A stretch of DNA of 44,834 bases. It comes from an uncultured Anaerolineaceae bacterium (GTDB lineage: Bacteria; Chloroflexota; Anaerolineae; Anaerolineales; Anaerolineaceae). The stretch covers positions 1-44,834 of the forward strand of contig CAKMKJ010000024.1 of NCBI GenBank assembly GCA_927443345.1, given 5' to 3'. The translations under genes were made by a program, and so were the position numbers. Below are positions 36,116-44,556 of this stretch, in pieces (the stretch's first letter is position 1; every line of letters starts with the position of its first letter). A model generated the notes under the pieces. It did no database searches. It worked only from the letters and a program-made list of their open reading frames with translations, and had not been told where the DNA came from.

Positions 36116-36219
36116 AATAGTGTTATAAATCCTTTAAAATAGATGATGCATTTTACCTTATTTGACAGGAACATTTTTATAGATATTTTCGTCTAAGAAT
36201 GGACAATGAGGAGTTTTTC

Positions 36220-37467
36220 ATGAAGGCAGCATTATCAAAACTATTTACTCTAGTGTTGGTGTCAAGTCTCTTGCTGACCGCCTGCAATGTTTCGATGACA
36301 TCGACTGAAGAAGTCAAACCTGAACAAGTGGCGACAATCATGTGGGCAACGGTTTCAACACGACTGACACAAATTGCTGTTGGTACACTCATTGCTGAAG
36401 CCACAAAGATTGCCTTGTATACCGCAACACCTACCATTACCGAGACGCCCACCATAACAGTGACGCCTACAGTTACTTCCACCCCTACATCAACTTTTAC
36501 TTTAGTACCGACCGCGACGTTTACACCTCTTTATACTTCTACGCCAGTAACGCCTACCGTTACAAAAACAAACACACCCAATCCAATCCCATGCAACCAG
36601 GCAGCTTTTGTGGCTGATGTGACCATGCCTGACAACTCAACTGTTTATGCTGGCCAAAGCTTTATTAAAACCTGGCGGATTAAGAACACTGGCTCATGCA
36701 ACTGGACTACTGCATATTCACTTGGTTTCCAAAGCGGCAACGCATTCAGCGCCCCTGCTTCAGTGCCTTTTACAAATACAGTAAAACCCGGAGATACTGT
36801 TGACCTTACAGTCAACATGATCTCGCCCAGCACTACCGGAGATTTTACTTCCAACTGGATGATTACAGGACCAAATTCCAGCACATTTGGCGTCGGAACA
36901 GCACCAGGCACTGCTTTATCTGTGAAAATTAAAGTAACCAGCATCCCACCCAACCGCGATCCTAACACGGTCTACGACTTTGTGGCGAATTATTGTGACG
37001 GGCAGTGGCGCACCAATGCGTCGTTTATTACATGTCCTACCGCTGGATATGATTATAAAAACGGCACCGTCACACGTAATTTCGCACCAATTCTTGAAAA
37101 TGGTGTCATGGATGATGAAGGCGCATTAATTACCATCCCAGCCATTGGTGGAGATGGATTTATCCAGGGACAATTCCCTCAATTTCTGGTTCATTCTGGT
37201 GATCACTTCAAAGCCACTCTATTATGCACGGTAAATAAACCTAAATGTTCCGTTACCTTTGAGCTTCTATACAGGATAAATGGCACGAATACTGTAACGT
37301 CATTAGGATCATGGGATAAGGTTTCTGATAACACCTTCATCCCGGTTGATGTTGATCTTTCAGCATTGGATGGGCAGAGTGTCATCTTCTTCTTGAAGGT
37401 TTCAAGTAAATCTGATTCAACAGATGACTTTGCCCAGTGGATGGCAGCGCGTATCACCCATCCTTAA
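36220..37467 (+). CDS. lipoprotein with NBR1-type Ig-like domain
   Basis: The 415-residue protein has a lipoprotein signal ending LLTAC (Cys22). A short helical segment and a Thr/Pro-rich stalk (about 75-130, repeating TPT/TxTP units) follow, then an Ig-like domain of the next-to-BRCA1 type (about 135-245: PDNSTVYAGQSFIKTWRIKN, then SCNWTTAYSLGF and VKPGDTVDLTVNM). A C-terminal beta-rich domain fills about 255-415. Thr/Pro stalks with this Ig domain are common in surface proteins of Anaerolineae. It is probably displayed outside the cell; its partner is unknown. The ATG at 36220 has GAGGAG upstream, while the in-frame ATG at 36199 has no site. It is the first of three consecutive secreted-protein genes. 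Confidence 0.85.
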   Translation: MKAALSKLFTLVLVSSLLLTACNVSMTSTEEVKPEQVATIMWATVSTRLTQIAVGTLIAEATKIALYTATPTITETPTITVTPTVTSTPTSTFTLVPTATFTPLYTSTPVTPTVTKTNTPNPIPCNQAAFVADVTMPDNSTVYAGQSFIKTWRIKNTGSCNWTTAYSLGFQSGNAFSAPASVPFTNTVKPGDTVDLTVNMISPSTTGDFTSNWMITGPNSSTFGVGTAPGTALSVKIKVTSIPPNRDPNTVYDFVANYCDGQWRTNASFITCPTAGYDYKNGTVTRNFAPILENGVMDDEGALITIPAIGGDGFIQGQFPQFLVHSGDHFKATLLCTVNKPKCSVTFELLYRINGTNTVTSLGSWDKVSDNTFIPVDVDLSALDGQSVIFFLKVSSKSDSTDDFAQWMAARITHP

Positions 37468-37517
37468 CCTTTCTGGATTGAAAACTAAGTTATTGCGCAT
37501 AATTATGAATTTCGCGC

Positions 37518-37539
37518 TATACTAGAATTTCACTAGTAT
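37518..37539. promoter_or_regulatory. -10-like element overlapping an inverted repeat
   Basis: A TATACT element (37518-37523) overlaps a 7-bp inverted repeat (atactag 37519-37525, ctagtat 37533-37539), 40-60 bases before the start of the three-repeat secreted protein. A -35-like TTGCGC lies 19 bases upstream of the -10, which is longer than usual. It could be a repressible promoter. Confidence 0.35.
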
Positions 37540-37578
37540 TTAGTAATGGTCTTTTAAAAGACGAACAGGAGTGGAAAA

Positions 37579-38766
37579 ATGGCACTTACAAACTTTAAGA
37601 ATTTTATTTTTCAAAAAAAAGCGATCAGAACACTCGTGATAGTATTTATGGTTTTGGTCATGCTCCTGGCAGGCTTTACCCCTGGCGCTGCTGCAGGTAA
37701 CCCAAACACATCCATTGTTTCTGTTATCAAAGATGTTAGCGTTACTATCTCAGGAACTAATTTCCCTACTGACATGACTTTCACAGTGCGCATGGGACCT
37801 TTCGGAACCCTTGGGGTAGGTGGAACGGTTGTCGGTACCAAAGAACCTTCCTCCAGCACTTCATTTACCGCGACTTATAATATTCCAGCTTCATTGGCTG
37901 GTGCTTCAAAAATCGCCATCCGTTTTGATAGCCCGCAAGGTTATTATGCATATGACTTCTTTGTCAATGACGCATCGGCTGCTGTTGCAACAGCCGGCCC
38001 AACAAAAACACCTGGTCCAACCAATACCCCAGGCCCCAGCCCCACCCCCAAACCGACTTCAACATATAAGGGTGTCATCCCTACTATTAACATTGTTGGT
38101 GTGCAGCAGGGCGTCAGTGTATCTGTCGTGACCAAGGATTACCCGGCTGGTCAAACCTTCACCGTTCGCATTGGCGAATATGGCACCCTTGGTATCGGCG
38201 GAACTGTTGTCGGCACATTGAACTCAGGGACCGGCGGTTCAGTTGCCCAGATATTTAACATCCCGGCTGCCTTGGCTGGCCGCGAGAAACTCTCAATTCG
38301 TCTCGACAGTCCCCTTGGCTACTACAGCTATGACTGGTTCAACAACAATGCATCTTTCGGAACCAGTGCAACCACACCCACCATGACTGTCACACCGGCT
38401 CCAACTGCCACACCTGGCGGCCCCACAGTGACTCCTTCAGCCACGCCTACGGCTGGTCCAACCACAACTGGGCCTGTTGCAGGTTATGTTGGCATCCCTA
38501 CCTTCTCGATCTCATCAGTCGTAAAAGATCAGAGCGTGACCATCTCTGCTGTAAACTTCCCACCCGGACAGACCTTCACCGTGCGAATGGGAGCATTTGG
38601 CACCATGGGAATCGGTGGAACAACCATTACCACCTTTAATTCAGGTAATGGAGGTAGTTTTACCGCCACTTATCCCATCCCCGCTGCAATTGCTGGGAGC
38701 GCCCAGTTAGCCATCCGCCTCGAAACTGGATATTATTACGCCTATAACTGGTTCTGGAACAATTAG
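37579..38766 (+). CDS. secreted protein with three homologous beta repeats and Thr/Pro linkers
   Basis: The 395-residue protein has a long signal peptide (hydrophobic core at about 18-36, cleavage likely near GAAAG). Three copies of an about 88-residue beta domain follow, at about 44-131, 168-255 and 305-395. Each copy has a SVTIS/NFP entry, the core FTVRMGxFGTxGxGGT, a TYxIPAxxAG turn and a closing GYYAYxWFxNN. The copies are joined by two Thr/Pro-rich linkers. It has no catalytic motif that I recognise. I infer a surface or extracellular adhesion or structural role. I believe similar repeats are frequent in Anaerolineae secretomes, but I cannot verify that here. AGGAG precedes the ATG. It lies between two lipoproteins. 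Confidence 0.85.
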   Translation: MALTNFKNFIFQKKAIRTLVIVFMVLVMLLAGFTPGAAAGNPNTSIVSVIKDVSVTISGTNFPTDMTFTVRMGPFGTLGVGGTVVGTKEPSSSTSFTATYNIPASLAGASKIAIRFDSPQGYYAYDFFVNDASAAVATAGPTKTPGPTNTPGPSPTPKPTSTYKGVIPTINIVGVQQGVSVSVVTKDYPAGQTFTVRIGEYGTLGIGGTVVGTLNSGTGGSVAQIFNIPAALAGREKLSIRLDSPLGYYSYDWFNNNASFGTSATTPTMTVTPAPTATPGGPTVTPSATPTAGPTTTGPVAGYVGIPTFSISSVVKDQSVTISAVNFPPGQTFTVRMGAFGTMGIGGTTITTFNSGNGGSFTATYPIPAAIAGSAQLAIRLETGYYYAYNWFWNN

Positions 38767-39408: not shown

Positions 39409-40503
39409 ATGGATAAGTCGCAATTGTTGCTTGAAAAGATGGATTTGCCTCGAACGAAAAACTATCGCTTTTCGGTCGTTATGAAAAATTTCTCCCTGAT
39501 CAGTTTGATTTGTATATTCTTATATGCCGTTTTGTTTGCCGCGCTTTCGGTTTGGCAGATGGTGCTGGTTTGTGGTGTTTGTGCCCTATTGTGGGTCGGT
39601 ATTCTTGTCATCAACCGGCAGGGCTTTTATCAGATCGCATTTCTCATCGGTGCAATAAACTCGACAGTTTTTGCTTTGTTGACGACCTGGTTGTTAGGTT
39701 GGTCTTCAGGGTTTTTCTTGATGGCCTTGATTATCATTCCAATAATTTTTCATAATTCTTATTGGGGTCAGATTGTAAAAGTTACGCTTGCTTTCGCTAT
39801 TCTGGCTGTGATTATTGGCTTATTCATCCTTTCATGGCAAAATGCTTCTTTTTGGGCGCTGGATGAGAAAATACTGAGAACGCTGTCAGCAATCAATCTG
39901 GCAATCACCGTGGTAGTTCTGGCAATCACGGGTCATTATTTTGAAACTTCCGCTGCGGATGCTGAGAAAGCTTTAATCCAGGCTAATAAAAAATTGGCCG
40001 GTTTGGCGACCACAGACCCGGTCACAAACCTGGTCAATCGACGCATTATATTGAGCCGCATCGAACAAGAAAAAAACCGCATGGAGAGAGGTAGTAAACC
40101 TTTCACCTTGATCATGGTGGATGTCGATAATTTTAAACACATCAATGATGAATACGGCCATTCTGGCGGAGACACTGTTTTAGTCAACTTGGCCGAAGCT
40201 ATCAGTTTTACCTTGCGCAAACAGGATGAAGTCGCCAGGTGGGGTGGCGATGAGTTTTTGATCATGCTGCCCGAAACAGATGTTGAGGGCGGTGTGATCG
40301 TGGCTGAAAAGATTCGCACAAGAATTGTTGAAACACCCTTCCTTTATCGAGAATTAGAAATTCCGGTAACCATTACGCTAGGTGTCAGCGCATGCGAACC
40401 AGGTAATGGTGTTGGAAGTTGCATCCGCAAGGCAGATCAGGCACTTTATGCTGGCAAACAAGCCGGTAAAAACAGGGTGGGAATTATTCAGACAGGTAAT
40501 TAG
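39409..40503 (+). CDS. membrane diguanylate cyclase (GGDEF)
   Basis: The 364-residue protein has six predicted membrane helices (about 25-180), a short coiled coil (ADAEKALIQANKKLAGLA) and a GGDEF domain (about 195-360). The active site is Gly279-Gly280-Asp281-Glu282-Phe283 in ARWGGDEFLIMLPETD. A product-inhibition I-site RKQD lies five residues before it, so the enzyme should make c-di-GMP and be feedback-limited. The membrane part has no recognisable sensor family. It has a weak AAGG site and is followed after 24 bases by a paralogue. Confidence 0.93.
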   Translation: MDKSQLLLEKMDLPRTKNYRFSVVMKNFSLISLICIFLYAVLFAALSVWQMVLVCGVCALLWVGILVINRQGFYQIAFLIGAINSTVFALLTTWLLGWSSGFFLMALIIIPIIFHNSYWGQIVKVTLAFAILAVIIGLFILSWQNASFWALDEKILRTLSAINLAITVVVLAITGHYFETSAADAEKALIQANKKLAGLATTDPVTNLVNRRIILSRIEQEKNRMERGSKPFTLIMVDVDNFKHINDEYGHSGGDTVLVNLAEAISFTLRKQDEVARWGGDEFLIMLPETDVEGGVIVAEKIRTRIVETPFLYRELEIPVTITLGVSACEPGNGVGSCIRKADQALYAGKQAGKNRVGIIQTGN

Positions 40504-40527
40504 TTACTAATAATCATAAGGAAGTTT

Positions 40528-41667
40528 ATGGTCGAAATAGAAGAAGCAGTTCCTGATCAGAGAGAAATAGATTTTCAAAAACAAAACTACTCTCGGTTGA
40601 TGCAATTGCTATTATTGGCTTTGGCTGCAATATCTACGCTCATGGTTCTTGTTTTGATGTTTATGCGCGCCAGAATGGATCTTATTATTTATGTAATTTC
40701 TACGATCATTGTTCTTTTTGTTCTCTATTTAGTGTACCGAACACGTCATGACACGGCTGGTTTTTATGGATTGATTTATTTGACCAGTCTAAATTGTCTC
40801 ATTGGCAACACAGCGATTGGCTGGCGCAGTGGAATCTACATTTTACTTTTGATACTCATTCCTATAATCCTTTACAATCCATCGATTAGAAAGGGTCACT
40901 TATTGGTTTTGAGTATTGGTTTTGGGCTAATATTCACCTCAACGCTTGTTTTAAGTTTTCTTCTCGTTCCAATTTTGCGGTTTACCCTCTTCCAGATGCA
41001 GGTCATGAATAGCATCAATGTCATAGTTACTTTTGTGGTGCTTGCCGGGATCTCTTTAATAGAAATCCGCAATAAAAACAAGGTTTCTGTGCGTTTGATT
41101 GAAGTCAACAACAAACTTGCCTATTATGCCAGCCGGGATTCCTTAACCAATCTATTAAACCGCAGAACCATGAGCCAGTTTATTCAAATGGAATATACAC
41201 GCTCAAAACGCTCTGTCAAACCTTTTGGTTTGATTATGGCGGATGTAGATGATTTCAAGCGGGTGAATGATACCTACGGTCATGCGGCAGGAGATCTGGT
41301 ATTAATCGAACTTGCAGGGCTGCTCTCTGCCACACTGAGATCACAGGATTTAATCGCCAGGTGGGGCGGAGAAGAATTCTTGATCTTGCTGCCAGAAACG
41401 GATTTTGAGGGTGTTCAAATTGCCGCAGAAAAAGTGAGGGATTTGATTGCTCATAGCAGTGTGCCATATCAAGGACATGATATTCAAATTACCCTGTCTA
41501 TTGGCGGTGTGGTGTGTGAGCGTGAAGCTCACTGGGATGATTGTATAAAAATCGCTGATCGAGCCTTGTATTACGGTAAAGCTCACGGTAAGAACCTGGC
41601 TGTTTTTGCCAAGGGAGATCAGTATTGTGTGTTGGGGTACTCTGACTCAGCTTTTATTGATAATTAA
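40528..41667 (+). CDS. membrane diguanylate cyclase (GGEEF), paralogue
   Basis: The 379-residue protein has the same layout as its upstream neighbour: six membrane helices (about 28-190), a short linker and a GGDEF-family domain (about 205-370). The site is Gly280-Gly281-Glu282-Glu283-Phe284 in ARWGGEEFLILLPETD, an active variant, with an RSQD I-site five residues before it. The metal-binding FGLIMADVDDFKRVND motif is intact. It probably arose by tandem duplication; the membrane parts have diverged more than the catalytic domains, which suggests different inputs. AAGGA precedes the ATG. It is convergent with elp3, with a 20-base gap. Confidence 0.93.
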   Translation: MVEIEEAVPDQREIDFQKQNYSRLMQLLLLALAAISTLMVLVLMFMRARMDLIIYVISTIIVLFVLYLVYRTRHDTAGFYGLIYLTSLNCLIGNTAIGWRSGIYILLLILIPIILYNPSIRKGHLLVLSIGFGLIFTSTLVLSFLLVPILRFTLFQMQVMNSINVIVTFVVLAGISLIEIRNKNKVSVRLIEVNNKLAYYASRDSLTNLLNRRTMSQFIQMEYTRSKRSVKPFGLIMADVDDFKRVNDTYGHAAGDLVLIELAGLLSATLRSQDLIARWGGEEFLILLPETDFEGVQIAAEKVRDLIAHSSVPYQGHDIQITLSIGGVVCEREAHWDDCIKIADRALYYGKAHGKNLAVFAKGDQYCVLGYSDSAFIDN

Positions 41668-41687: not shown

Positions 41688-43361
41688 TTACAAATCTTTG
41701 ATCATGTAAATTTCTCCGCGATTGAATCCGCGGCCTTCATAATAAAGCCGGGTTCCGATAGCTGCGATGACTGCCATTTTCGAGAAACCTTTTGAGCGTG
41801 CAATTCTTTCCGCTTCGAGCAGCAGGGCTGTACCCAGGCCAATGTGCTGTGCTGCACCTGTTTTTTCTGCCCCTACTGCCAATGACTGACCATAGACGTG
41901 CACTTCACGGATCAAAGCTGCACCATTCAAATCAGACCATCCCAATTGCGGAGATTCAGACGTAGGCAGCGAAAGCCGCAGATAACCCGCCAGTTTATCT
42001 TCTGGTGTGTTGAAAGAGATGAAATGTTCTTCGGCTTCAGAAGGGGTGTAAACCAGGTCTTTGAGGGTCAGGGTTGCAACATCCACCTGTTGGGTTTTTA
42101 CTTCACGGCAGCGGATGCAATGGCAGACCTGCCCGCGTTTTTTGAGTTCGGCGCTAACGTCTTGCCTCAGGCTGGTGCGCTTGTTGCCTTCTACCACATG
42201 CGTAGACGGAATATCGCGAATGATGCGATTGACGCGGCAATACTCCGGAATGCTTGGTTTAATATCCGCAATCAGTTGAATCAATTCTTCCTGGGTATAC
42301 GGGTGGTATTCTCCGCGCTGCCAATAATGATAGAGTTCGGCAGATTCAAGCAGTTGGGTGGGATAAATTTTAAGTTCGTCTGGCGCATAGCCATCTTGCC
42401 ATAGTTTTTCAAAATCGCGCCGGTCAGATTCCAGCGTTGCCCCATGCAGGTTGGGCATCCAATGCAGCACGATCTTGAACCCTGCAGCCCTCAACAGGGA
42501 GGTGGCTTTCAGTGTGTCAGCGGCGGTGTGTCCGCGTAGATTCATGGCCAGCACGCGGTCATCCAGGCTTTGCGCGCCCATCTGCACCTTTGTGACACCC
42601 AGATGGCGCAGCCATTTTAGTTCATCTGTGTTTATCTCATTCGGTCGGGTTTCAATCACCAGACCCACGTTGCGGTGGTTAGCGGTTTCGTTGTTTTCAT
42701 GCACTATTTTGAGCAGCGACAAATCAATAAATTCTAAAGAGCGATGTTCATCAGGTTGTTCTGGCTGCTGGATTTCTTCACTGGAATTGAGTGCATCCAT
42801 ATTCATAGCGTTAAAACAGCGCCGCACGAACCACTCCTGGTAGTTGCGTTTATAAGAGCTCCAGGTGCCGCCGAGGATCAGCAGCTCAATCTTGTCGTTG
42901 GGGTGCCCCACGGTTTGGTATTCCTTGATGCGTGATTGCACCTGGTTGTAGGGGTCAAATTTATTCTGGAAGGCTCGCGCTGCACCCGGTTCGTCGGCCA
43001 GGTAACTTTTGGGCATGTAGTTTTCTGTTGGGCAGAAGATGCATTTGCCTGGGCATGGATACTCCTTGGTCAGCACAGTGACTGTAGTGACCCCTGAGAG
43101 CGTCCGTACGGGTTTCATGCGGATGCGACTGAGGAATTCTGCATCTTCCTTCCATGCGCCGCTGGCTACCAATTCGCGATAGGCAGCCACCAGAACATGC
43201 TTGGCGAGCAAACGACCGTTTTGCAGTGGGTGTGAACGTAGAGCACGATCAAGCTTGCGCCCTTCGCGCATTTCCTCCAACACAACCTTCGCCATTTGCA
43301 GGTCTTCAGGGGTGTACTGCCTGGCTTTGTGCCAGTTTTCGATGTACTCCTGATTATGCAT
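41688..43361 (-). CDS. elp3: Elp3: radical SAM/GNAT tRNA U34 carboxymethyltransferase
   Basis: The 557-residue enzyme is a complete stand-alone Elp3. An N-terminal tRNA-binding region (1-90) is followed by a radical SAM domain with the cluster cysteines Cys103, Cys107 and Cys110 (YPCPGKCIFCPTE), then LILGGTWSSYKRNYQEWF and VGLVIETRPNEI. A zinc-type Cys-rich segment (VCHCIRCREV) comes next, and a C-terminal GNAT domain (about 450-557: HIGLGTALLLEAERIA, LYYEGRGFNRGEIYM). Elp3 uses SAM and acetyl-CoA to make cm5U at wobble uridines. The ATG has no Shine-Dalgarno, and a -10-like TATACC lies about 6 bases upstream, so a leaderless mRNA is possible. It is divergent, across 20 bp, from a Trm9-like methyltransferase. 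Confidence 0.93.
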   Translation of the reverse strand: MHNQEYIENWHKARQYTPEDLQMAKVVLEEMREGRKLDRALRSHPLQNGRLLAKHVLVAAYRELVASGAWKEDAEFLSRIRMKPVRTLSGVTTVTVLTKEYPCPGKCIFCPTENYMPKSYLADEPGAARAFQNKFDPYNQVQSRIKEYQTVGHPNDKIELLILGGTWSSYKRNYQEWFVRRCFNAMNMDALNSSEEIQQPEQPDEHRSLEFIDLSLLKIVHENNETANHRNVGLVIETRPNEINTDELKWLRHLGVTKVQMGAQSLDDRVLAMNLRGHTAADTLKATSLLRAAGFKIVLHWMPNLHGATLESDRRDFEKLWQDGYAPDELKIYPTQLLESAELYHYWQRGEYHPYTQEELIQLIADIKPSIPEYCRVNRIIRDIPSTHVVEGNKRTSLRQDVSAELKKRGQVCHCIRCREVKTQQVDVATLTLKDLVYTPSEAEEHFISFNTPEDKLAGYLRLSLPTSESPQLGWSDLNGAALIREVHVYGQSLAVGAEKTGAAQHIGLGTALLLEAERIARSKGFSKMAVIAAIGTRLYYEGRGFNRGEIYMIKDL

Positions 43362-43381
43362 TGATCGGTATAATTGGGAAT
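43362..43381. promoter_or_regulatory. 20-bp divergent promoter of elp3 and the Trm9-like gene
   Basis: The two ATG codons face each other over 20 bp. A consensus TATAAT (43369-43374) lies 7 bases before the methyltransferase ATG. On the opposite strand TTATAC/TATACC overlaps the same bases and lies 5-6 bases before the elp3 ATG. Neither gene has a Shine-Dalgarno. Both mRNAs would start at or within a base or two of their ATG. No good -35 is seen for either. Confidence 0.5.
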
Positions 43382-44140
43382 ATGGATGAATCAGTAAGTA
43401 AAAAATTATTAGACATTAACGACAAATTTTACCAGAGTTTCGGTGCTGCGTTTGCCGAGACGCGTCATCGCATCCAACCCGGTGTTCAGCGCATCGTGGA
43501 TGAGTGGATTAAACCTGGCGACTGGCTGGATATTGGCTGCGGCAGCGGTGTTTTGGGTCAGCGCCTGGCGCAAAGCGGATTGCAGGGGTCGTACCTTGGT
43601 TTGGATTTCAGCGAGCCTCTGCTGGCTGAAGCGCGTCAAGGTGTTGAAGCTCTGCCTGCCCATGACGGGTTTGAATTGGCTTATCGGTCAGCCAATTTAA
43701 TGCATCCAAACTGGTCAGATGGCTTGCAGTCAAATACTTTTGATGGCATTCTGGCTTTTGCCGTCTTTCACCACCTGCCGGGTGCAGAAAAACGCAGGCG
43801 GTTGCTTTCACAAATTTACAACTTGCTCAAACCAGGCGGTGTGTTTATCCATTCTGAATGGCAGTTTGATCGCAATCCCAAGTTGGCAGCGCGTGTGCAG
43901 CCCTGGTCTATCGCAGGTCTCTCCGCGGATGAAGTGGAACCGGGTGATTTTTTGTTGGATTGGCGCCACTACACTGCCGGGCAAACCGACGAACCGGGCT
44001 TGCGCTATGTACATTTGTTTACTGAGTCTGAATTGAAAGAATTGGCGGCGTCAACAGGTTATACCATTCTCGAGCAGTTTGACTCAGACGGCAAAACCGG
44101 CAACCTGGGGCTTTACCAGGTCTGGCAGAAAACAGCTTAA
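43382..44140 (+). CDS. Trm9/ALKBH8-like SAM-dependent methyltransferase
   Basis: The 252-residue class I methyltransferase has motif I WLDIGCGSG (about 48-56), an acidic motif II (YLGLDFSEPLL) and post-I LAFAVFHHLPGAEKRRRLL with LKPGG. Several features recall the eukaryotic tRNA methyltransferases Trm9 and ALKBH8: FAETRHRI before motif I (Trm9-type FSxTRY/H), AVFHHL with a following Arg-rich helix (AVxHH...ERR), a VQPW segment (V-x-PW) and the C-terminal LRYVHLFTESELKEL (LRYYHVF-x-E-x-EL). In eukaryotes these enzymes methylate the cm5U made by Elp3. Position opposite elp3 fits that role. The frame is open upstream to 43154, but that part is antisense to elp3 and lacks family similarity. A general methyltransferase remains possible. 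Confidence 0.8.
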   Translation: MDESVSKKLLDINDKFYQSFGAAFAETRHRIQPGVQRIVDEWIKPGDWLDIGCGSGVLGQRLAQSGLQGSYLGLDFSEPLLAEARQGVEALPAHDGFELAYRSANLMHPNWSDGLQSNTFDGILAFAVFHHLPGAEKRRRLLSQIYNLLKPGGVFIHSEWQFDRNPKLAARVQPWSIAGLSADEVEPGDFLLDWRHYTAGQTDEPGLRYVHLFTESELKELAASTGYTILEQFDSDGKTGNLGLYQVWQKTA

Positions 44141-44556
44141 TCTTCCGTGCTTGAAAATGACATAGGGAACAACGCTGCCTGGGGGATCTCGCCCAGGTGC
44201 ATGCGGTTTTTGACCTGGTTGAGATGATAGTTCACCGTACGCCTTGAAAGGTTCAGCAATAAAGCAATTTCTCCGCTCGACAATCCGCGGATGGAGAGTT
44301 CGTGCACCTGTTTCTGACGGCGCGAGAGAGATGCTGGGGTGTGAGTTCGTTTGGGGGGTGTGGCCCTTTGTGCTGCGGGTGCCACCACCACCGTACCGCC
44401 CATTTCGCTGGCGGTTAGTCTGTCTGGCGGCGCACTGCGCAGCACCGCCAGCGGACGAATGCCGGCATTGACCGCTGCACACAGTTGGGCGGCGGGCATA
44501 TCGACTTCAAGTTGGATGACCGTAACGTCATCTGGCAGGTAGAGCAGGCGAGTCAT
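44137..44556 (-). CDS. orphan LuxR-type HTH protein without a receiver
   Basis: The 139-residue protein has a C-terminal LuxR/NarL-type DNA-binding domain (about 80-125: LSRRQKQVHELSIRGLSSGE, then LNLSRRTVNYHLNQVKNRM). The N-terminal 70 residues do not form a receiver: there is no acidic pocket or acceptor Asp, though the segment DDVTVIQLEVDMPAAQL could be a small ligand- or protein-binding fold. An Arg/Pro-rich linker joins the parts. GGAGA lies before the ATG. Its last four bases overlap the end of the convergent methyltransferase gene, so the two transcripts overlap. Target genes are unknown. Confidence 0.8.
   Translation of the reverse strand: MTRLLYLPDDVTVIQLEVDMPAAQLCAAVNAGIRPLAVLRSAPPDRLTASEMGGTVVVAPAAQRATPPKRTHTPASLSRRQKQVHELSIRGLSSGEIALLLNLSRRTVNYHLNQVKNRMHLGEIPQAALFPMSFSSTED

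Follow-up and report, generated by a model that had tools for sequence, protein, structure and literature searches.

A conserved divergent elp3–methyltransferase gene pair in Chloroflexota as a predicted Elp3–Trm9-like pathway for the wobble uridine of tRNA

Why should a gene for a methyltransferase resembling Trm9, the eukaryotic enzyme that acts after Elp3 on the wobble uridine (U34) of transfer RNA (tRNA), stand head to head with elp3 in a bacterium? This question is raised by contig CAKMKJ010000024.1 of an uncultured Anaerolineaceae bacterium (assembly GCA_927443345.1), of which the whole stretch analysed here (44,834 nucleotides) is referred to as the window. At this locus, elp3 (positions 41688–43361, minus strand; 557 amino acids) and the gene for P0001, a Trm9-like class I methyltransferase of 252 amino acids (43382–44140, plus strand), diverge from start codons separated by an intergenic gap of 20 base pairs (bp; 43362–43381), and the gap has the same length in the relatives L002–L005. 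A preliminary description of this DNA had reported a complete Elp3 and a methyltransferase divergent over 20 bp, and its coordinates, orientation and gap all proved exact. The interpretation favoured here, to which we assign a probability of roughly 0.7, is that both genes would form a two-step U34 pathway yielding a product of the 5-methoxycarbonylmethyluridine (mcm5U) type, which would stand in for MnmE–MnmG in the Chloroflexota that carry Elp3. Firstly, Elp3 would use radical chemistry of S-adenosylmethionine (SAM) and acetyl-CoA to place a carboxymethyl group on U34, generating 5-carboxymethyluridine (cm5U). Secondly, the divergent Trm9-like enzyme would transfer the methyl group of SAM to the carboxylate of cm5U to form mcm5U34, and thiolation by MnmA would lead to the 2-thiolated derivative mcm5s2U as the end product in the tRNAs for Lys, Glu and Gln.

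The window Elp3 comprises a radical SAM part, a radical SAM C-terminal part and an acetyltransferase part, scores 472.6 bits against the family model TIGR01211 (cut-off 350) and matches the structure PDB 5l7j at E 2.5e-104. It aligns to solved Elp3 proteins of bacteria and archaea with the C-terminal acetyltransferase part included, the alignments with 5l7j and 6iaz extending up to residues 556–557 and including C103, C107 and C110. These residues, the iron–sulfur cysteines of the radical SAM part, lie in the motif CPGKCIFC (C103-x3-C107-x2-C110; codons at 43032–43055, minus strand), aligned to CPGKCIYC of 5l7j. The GNAT-type acetyltransferase part (approximately residues 446–557; 41691–42026, minus strand), which aligns to the end of both structures, scores 17.2 bits with PF00583, under the cut-off of 20.7. 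The window protein is a complete Elp3, for which formation of cm5U34 is predicted from family knowledge, activity of archaeal Elp3 being cited in papers.

The pairing and co-occurrence of both genes were surveyed in two sets of genomes, which could have species in common and do not count as independent, namely a scan of genome_contigs queried with P0001 and an even sample of 251 genomes of the phylum (that of the window and 250 others), in which Elp3 was counted when its score exceeded the curated cut-off and the window-type methyltransferase when it matched at E 1e-30 or better. The scan returned 37 methyltransferase loci, all from records whose titles name Chloroflexi, Anaerolineae or a genus belonging to them, and elp3 lies divergently beside the methyltransferase in 33 of them, within 400 bp in 29 (the distance being taken up to the portion of elp3 that aligned); elp3 was not seen beside it in L010, L011, L019 and L036, the last of which reaches the contig edge on that side. 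The pair is also present in an isolate, Bellilinea caldifistulae GOMI-1 (L013), with the genes approximately 0.1 kb apart. In the phylum sample, Elp3 occurs in 45 genomes and the window-type methyltransferase in 24, all of which carry Elp3, and a divergent methyltransferase is located within approximately 2.2 kb of elp3 in 40 of the 45 (20/25 in the class of the window and 20/20 elsewhere in the phylum). Within this class, 25 of the 31 genomes contain Elp3 and 24 of those 25 the window-type methyltransferase, while the six genomes without Elp3 are also devoid of the methyltransferase. The 20 Elp3 genomes outside the class are labelled here Dehalococcoides-like, only G007 being tied to Dehalococcoides, via its Elp3 (985 bits over 458 residues against the crystallised D. 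mccartyi Elp3, PDB 5l7j). All 20 carry another methyltransferase divergently beside elp3, with only 23–27% identity to P0001.

Since the pair is conserved in both surveys, chance adjacency of elp3 and the methyltransferase gene is unlikely and was ruled out as an explanation; the counts of 33/37 loci and 40/45 Elp3 genomes also give a positive outcome for the survey of synteny in Chloroflexota that the preliminary description had suggested. Passive adjacency, in which unrelated genes are kept together by inheritance, would be all that the near relatives L002–L005 could reveal by themselves, and other genes do intervene in L012, L014, L017 and L141. However, the pairing survives such insertions, persists down to 36% methyltransferase identity (L060) and recurs in the second, far more divergent group, and the two genes are co-present or co-missing in the class with one exception, all of which makes mere inheritance very improbable.

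The functional pathway favoured here draws further support from the distribution of MnmE and MnmG. Over the curated cut-offs, MnmG (tested first in 61 genomes and then in all 251) is found in 95 genomes of the sample, MnmE in 97, and one or both in 103. All 103 belong to the 206 genomes without Elp3, against 0 of the 45 with it (Fisher p approximately 5e-11 for MnmG and 2e-11 for MnmE, uncorrected for kinship). In those Elp3 genomes that belong to the window's class, the weak MnmG matches lie mostly in frames of approximately 450–550 amino acids, which look like TrmFO, and the MnmE matches listed for these genomes fall in its GTPase part. MnmA, tested in 51 of the 251 genomes, passes the cut-off in all Elp3 genomes but one (44/45) and, therefore, 2-thiolation should be available. 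A Trm112-like partner, whose presence in Chloroflexota had been suggested for inspection, was tested in 61 of the 251 genomes and turned out to be frequent but not general: 35 of the 45 Elp3 genomes, including that of the window itself (78-amino-acid frame, C17:6442–6561, 29.5 bits, cut-off 22), contain a match, in some cases inside long frames, and 10 contain none, so that Trm112 is unlikely to be required everywhere. On these genomic patterns, the link of the methyltransferase to Elp3 is well supported, and a U34 function of the pair has strong genomic support, its product being predicted.

The nature of the methyltransferase has to be considered next. P0001 displays the class I SAM methyltransferase fold with a DxGCG motif (AlphaFold2 model with a mean predicted local distance difference test score, pLDDT, of 95.2), its SAM-binding motif I being DIGCG (residues 50–54; 43529–43543, plus strand), in which D50, G52, C53 and G54 are invariant. 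Assignment to a curated family was attempted and abandoned, as no NCBIfam model exceeded its cut-off among the matches listed (25 of 40). The leading models, CpaM (NF043040; 57.4 bits, cut-off 180), BioC, UbiG and, lower, UbiE, are all far under their cut-offs, and four UbiE/MenG models among the matches listed score 18–29 bits with cut-offs of 158–420. CpaM, UbiG, BioC and others match every one of 49 window-type relatives (cut-offs refer to P0001 only), and the first Dehalococcoides-like member gave a similar NCBIfam outcome. These leading models, together with a Pfam UbiE/COQ5 score slightly over its cut-off and with METTL6 and several small-molecule enzymes whose structure scores equal or exceed that of Trm9, might suggest a methyltransferase that modifies a small molecule (quinone or other) or a protein (e.g., Elp3) and is tied to elp3 just by shared regulation. 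Nevertheless, such an enzyme is improbable in view of the strict co-occurrence with Elp3 (24/24), the same-arrangement partner in the other group (20/20) and an active-site signature that occurs in none of 40 control methyltransferases.

This signature was derived by comparison with Trm9. Yeast Trm9 numbers are assigned here to the window enzyme presumptively, by position and by the yeast sequence, the alignment itself being with 5cm2. For the window-type family, 49 of 61 ortholog rows were aligned, with P0001 standing for L039 (left out were the near-copies L003–L005, the rows L012, L024, L027, L029, L034, L040 and L050, and the partial L036 and L038); for the Dehalococcoides-like family, 18 of 20 were used, without L078 (close to L077) and L085 (a run-on frame). 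Mutagenesis of yeast Trm9, as described in a passage of a Trm112 review, pinpointed R29, H115, R241, Y243 and N271 (PMC5372719). The counterparts of the first three, matched through the alignment with the Trm9 structure 5cm2, are R28, H131 and R208, kept in all 49 window-type enzymes, and the neighbouring T27 and H211 are kept in 48 and 46, respectively. R28 (43463–43465, plus strand) is found in FAETRH and corresponds by position to R29; H131, taken as the counterpart of H115, belongs to the pair H130–H131 (43769–43774, plus strand) aligned to HH of 5cm2; and R208 (44003–44005, plus strand), taken as the counterpart of R241, is located in LRYVHLF, where 5cm2 has RYYHLY. Moreover, W194 in GDFLLDW (43961–43963, plus strand), conserved in 49/49, corresponds to the Trp of DVMVPW in Trm9, with which both HMMER and MAFFT align it; the residue correspondence with Trm9 was seen separately in the HMMER alignment. 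The Trm9-like motifs named in the preliminary description are present in P0001 and conserved in the 49 sequences, but its V-x-PW element (VQPW, residues 173–176) is not the counterpart of the Trm9 PW.

Jointly, R28, H131, W194 and R208 are present in 49/49 window-type and 17/18 Dehalococcoides-like enzymes and in 0/40 controls, a test that favours both families because the reference alignment was built from those two, and whose controls were hand-picked from high-scoring Chloroflexota methyltransferase matches (L104 and L106 are identical and others are close relatives). The Dehalococcoides-like form keeps all five mutagenesis residues by position, with Y175 in 90% or more and N212 invariant (n = 18). 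The window-type lid differs from that of Trm9 in an insert of approximately 20 residues before GDFLLDW, in Val or Ala for Tyr, and in a family-specific SDG motif. This remodelled lid, and the fact that pairing and MnmE–MnmG exclusion point to U34 but not to one particular atom, would fit a methyltransferase of the same U34 pathway whose product is not mcm5U, for example because the methyl group goes to another atom (2'-O or a ring nitrogen) or because a derivative of cm5U is required. Such an activity is considered unlikely, since the four signature residues are kept as in Trm9 and the Dehalococcoides-like partner, encoded in the same place, retains the complete set from mutagenesis.

For formation of an mcm5U-type product, similarity searches provide additional indications. 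The Trm9 of Yarrowia (5cm2), searched against 51 genomes, finds the elp3-adjacent enzyme as top match in 20/20 Dehalococcoides-like genomes, e.g., at 1.1e-17 in G154, where the next match lies at 0.038. In 19 of these 20 genomes, the window profile recovers the gene beside elp3 at no worse than 7.2e-10, and in 12 it is the top match; in G082 this gene is absent from the seven window-profile matches, yet it reaches 43.4 bits in another search. Comparison of both family profiles gave a probability of 99.6 with the lid regions aligned, a result that class I methyltransferases often produce. Against solved structures, the Dehalococcoides-like profile (18 enzymes) ranks Trm9 (5cm2) first, at 6.7e-22 with the next at 4.5e-20, while the window-type profile (49 enzymes) ranks it third of 298, at 8.6e-13 over positions 25–220, the first being at 2.8e-13. 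In Foldseek, 5cm2 is second for the Dehalococcoides-like model. In a separate structure comparison with this model, it stands at row 17 with Z 21.3 and, across 174 residues, a root-mean-square deviation (rmsd) of 1.9, which no other match listed undercuts; such comparison does not discriminate, all 1000 aligned chains showing Z of 8 or more for both models. Thus, the case for Trm9 identity is stronger for the Dehalococcoides-like enzymes than for those of the window type.

Several results weigh against this interpretation, particularly as regards the window-type enzyme. The counterpart of Y243 is replaced, position 210 being Val in 40, Ala in seven, Thr in one and Cys in one of the 49 enzymes, and no conserved Asn corresponding to N271 is found in their last strand (239–245). 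Taken singly, the signature residues also occur among the 40 controls (R28 in 16, H131 in 22, W194 in nine and R208 in eight), three of which combine R28 with R208. Yarrowia Trm9 has the window-type enzyme as its top match in just 12 of the 24 genomes holding it, and in the window's own genome P0001 comes second (3.6e-5 vs. 1.4e-6). Conversely, when the 31 genomes belonging to the class of the window were searched with the Dehalococcoides-like profile, the window-type gene did not stand out from other methyltransferases. The base of a tree including 16 of the 49 window-type enzymes, all 18 Dehalococcoides-like ones, Trm9 and the 40 controls does not resolve the kinship of window-type enzymes, Dehalococcoides-like enzymes and Trm9, and Trm9 sits on a long branch. 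P0001 exceeds the Pfam cut-offs of UbiE/COQ5 (PF01209; 22.0 bits, cut-off 20.1) and PrmA (22.3 bits, cut-off 22). In structure searches, many class I methyltransferases equal or outscore Trm9; for the window model, 5cm2 takes rank 19 in Foldseek and is not among the best 50 rows of the VIA list. At the level of genomes, both genes are present but separated in G176, G096, G144 and G240, on different contigs in three of them, and G192, a genome of the window's class, has Elp3 with neither a window-type methyltransferase nor any other adjoining elp3. Finally, 103 of the 251 Chloroflexota genomes, some of them incomplete assemblies, have no Elp3, MnmE or MnmG over the cut-off.

Because the tree and the profile searches leave its kinship unsettled, P0001 is called here Trm9-like and not Trm9: the signature in 49/49 window-type enzymes vs. 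0/40 controls speaks for Trm9, whereas the replaced Y243 and N271 counterparts and the second place in its own genome speak against it. The comparison of P0001 with families and structures foreseen in the preliminary description was similarly divided, with Trm9 third by the window profile on one side, and Foldseek rank 19 and PF01209 over its cut-off on the other. As for its suggestion of an mcm5U-like pathway in Chloroflexota, this is supported in part, by pairing, co-occurrence, MnmE–MnmG exclusion and the signature, and weakened by the two replaced residues and the 10/45 Elp3 genomes without a Trm112-like match. The second step, esterification, would rely on the pairing, the MnmE–MnmG exclusion and the active-site signature. 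What the enzyme acts on, its methyl ester product, the tRNAs concerned and independence from Trm112 are predictions of this interpretation. A broader proposition, with somewhat better than even odds, is that much of the Chloroflexota may possess a complete bacterial mcm5(s2)U34 pathway replacing MnmE–MnmG and formed by single-subunit Elp3 and Trm9-like enzymes, Trm112-free at least in some lineages, whose two divergent forms (in Anaerolineales and Dehalococcoides-like genomes) occupy the same divergent position by elp3.

The proposed pathway can be compared with several known systems. Bacteria build C5 side chains on U34 by MnmE–MnmG with MnmC, or by the MnmL–MnmM pair, with later methylation as in the route proposed here; the chemistry of MnmE–MnmG is, however, different from that of Elp3. 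CmoM, which methylates a carboxylate on the side chain of a wobble uridine (from uridine-5-oxyacetic acid, cmo5U, to its methyl ester mcmo5U), would be alike in its reaction, but P0001 lies far under the CmoM cut-off (NF008264; 17.5 bits, cut-off 366). A close parallel is provided by Elp3/Elongator with Trm9–Trm112 in yeast or ALKBH8–TRMT112 in humans, where Elp3 produces cm5U and a class I methyltransferase then forms the ester, and where the methyltransferase shares with the window enzyme the N-terminal Arg, the HH pair, the PW-type Trp and the RY-x-H residues of the lid. MnmA would hold in Chloroflexota the place of the eukaryotic thiolation by Ncs6/Ctu1. In contrast to the yeast and human systems, the Chloroflexota system is bacterial, relies on an Elp3 of a single subunit, lacks AlkB and RRM parts, shows a remodelled window-type lid, and, unlike the Trm112-dependent eukaryotic pair, has no Trm112-like match in part of the Elp3 genomes. 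A single Elp3 together with Trm9 homologues is also found in archaea (Sulfolobus, Haloferax). Passages of two papers describe elp3 and trm9 as clustered in Sulfolobus solfataricus (PMC2584109, PMC5372719), and a figure of the archaeal cluster also includes genes for sulfur transfer (PMC2584109), whereas the Chloroflexota pair is divergent.

Regarding bacteria, the D. mccartyi Elp3 (PDB 5l7j) belongs to the same family as the window protein, and G007 carries a near match to it along with a divergent Trm9-like gene; relevant passages of papers present the D. mccartyi protein with no methyltransferase partner. In a 2020 review, bacterial Elp3 is placed in one specific clade, Dehalococcoides, with direct evidence for xcm5U34 derivatives said to be lacking (PMC7663514); the occurrence of Elp3 in 25/31 genomes of the window's class extends beyond that clade. 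According to a passage of the Trm112 review, no gene with significant similarity to those eukaryotic methyltransferases that depend on Trm112 had been detected in bacteria (PMC5372719), and the part of a 2020 catalogue concerned with these nucleosides assigns to Bacteria 5-carboxymethylaminomethyluridine (cmnm5U), 5-methylaminomethyluridine (mnm5U) and 5-aminomethyluridine (nm5U), but not mcm5U or mcm5s2U (PMC7694415). A literature search covering titles and the beginnings of abstracts returned, among the matches listed, no report of a bacterial elp3–methyltransferase pair or of mutual exclusion of Elp3 and MnmE–MnmG. The finding is best described as a probable bacterial variant of the Elp3–Trm9 pathway, wider than one locus, with mcm5U as its predicted product. 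The conserved Trm9-like partner names the enzyme that would act after bacterial Elp3 and, if the proposal is true, bacteria can exchange their own U34 pathway for a eukaryote-type one; the presence of the pair in the isolate B. caldifistulae GOMI-1 makes this question simply testable in culture.

Some minor observations concern the surroundings of these genes. The genes standing between the members of the pair in relatives, with names read from sequence, encode an ATP-binding cassette (ABC) transporter (L012, L014), a protein resembling 3'-phosphoadenosine-5'-phosphosulfate (PAPS) reductase (L017) and a site-2-protease-like protein (L141); a constant third gene was found neither between the genes of five pairs nor beside the lone elp3 of G192. 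For G192, L087 and L151, the closest G192 relative (L113) has Trp and Arg at the columns of W194 and R208, and no R28. In the window, judging by eye, a tandem pair of GGDEF-type proteins (WGGDEF and WGGEEF), likely diguanylate cyclases, is encoded directly downstream of elp3 (39409–41667). A 139-amino-acid protein with the look of a LuxR-type helix-turn-helix protein is encoded on the minus strand (44137–44556), convergent with the methyltransferase gene and overlapping its end by four bases, and two secreted-looking proteins with linkers rich in Thr and Pro are encoded at 36199–38766.

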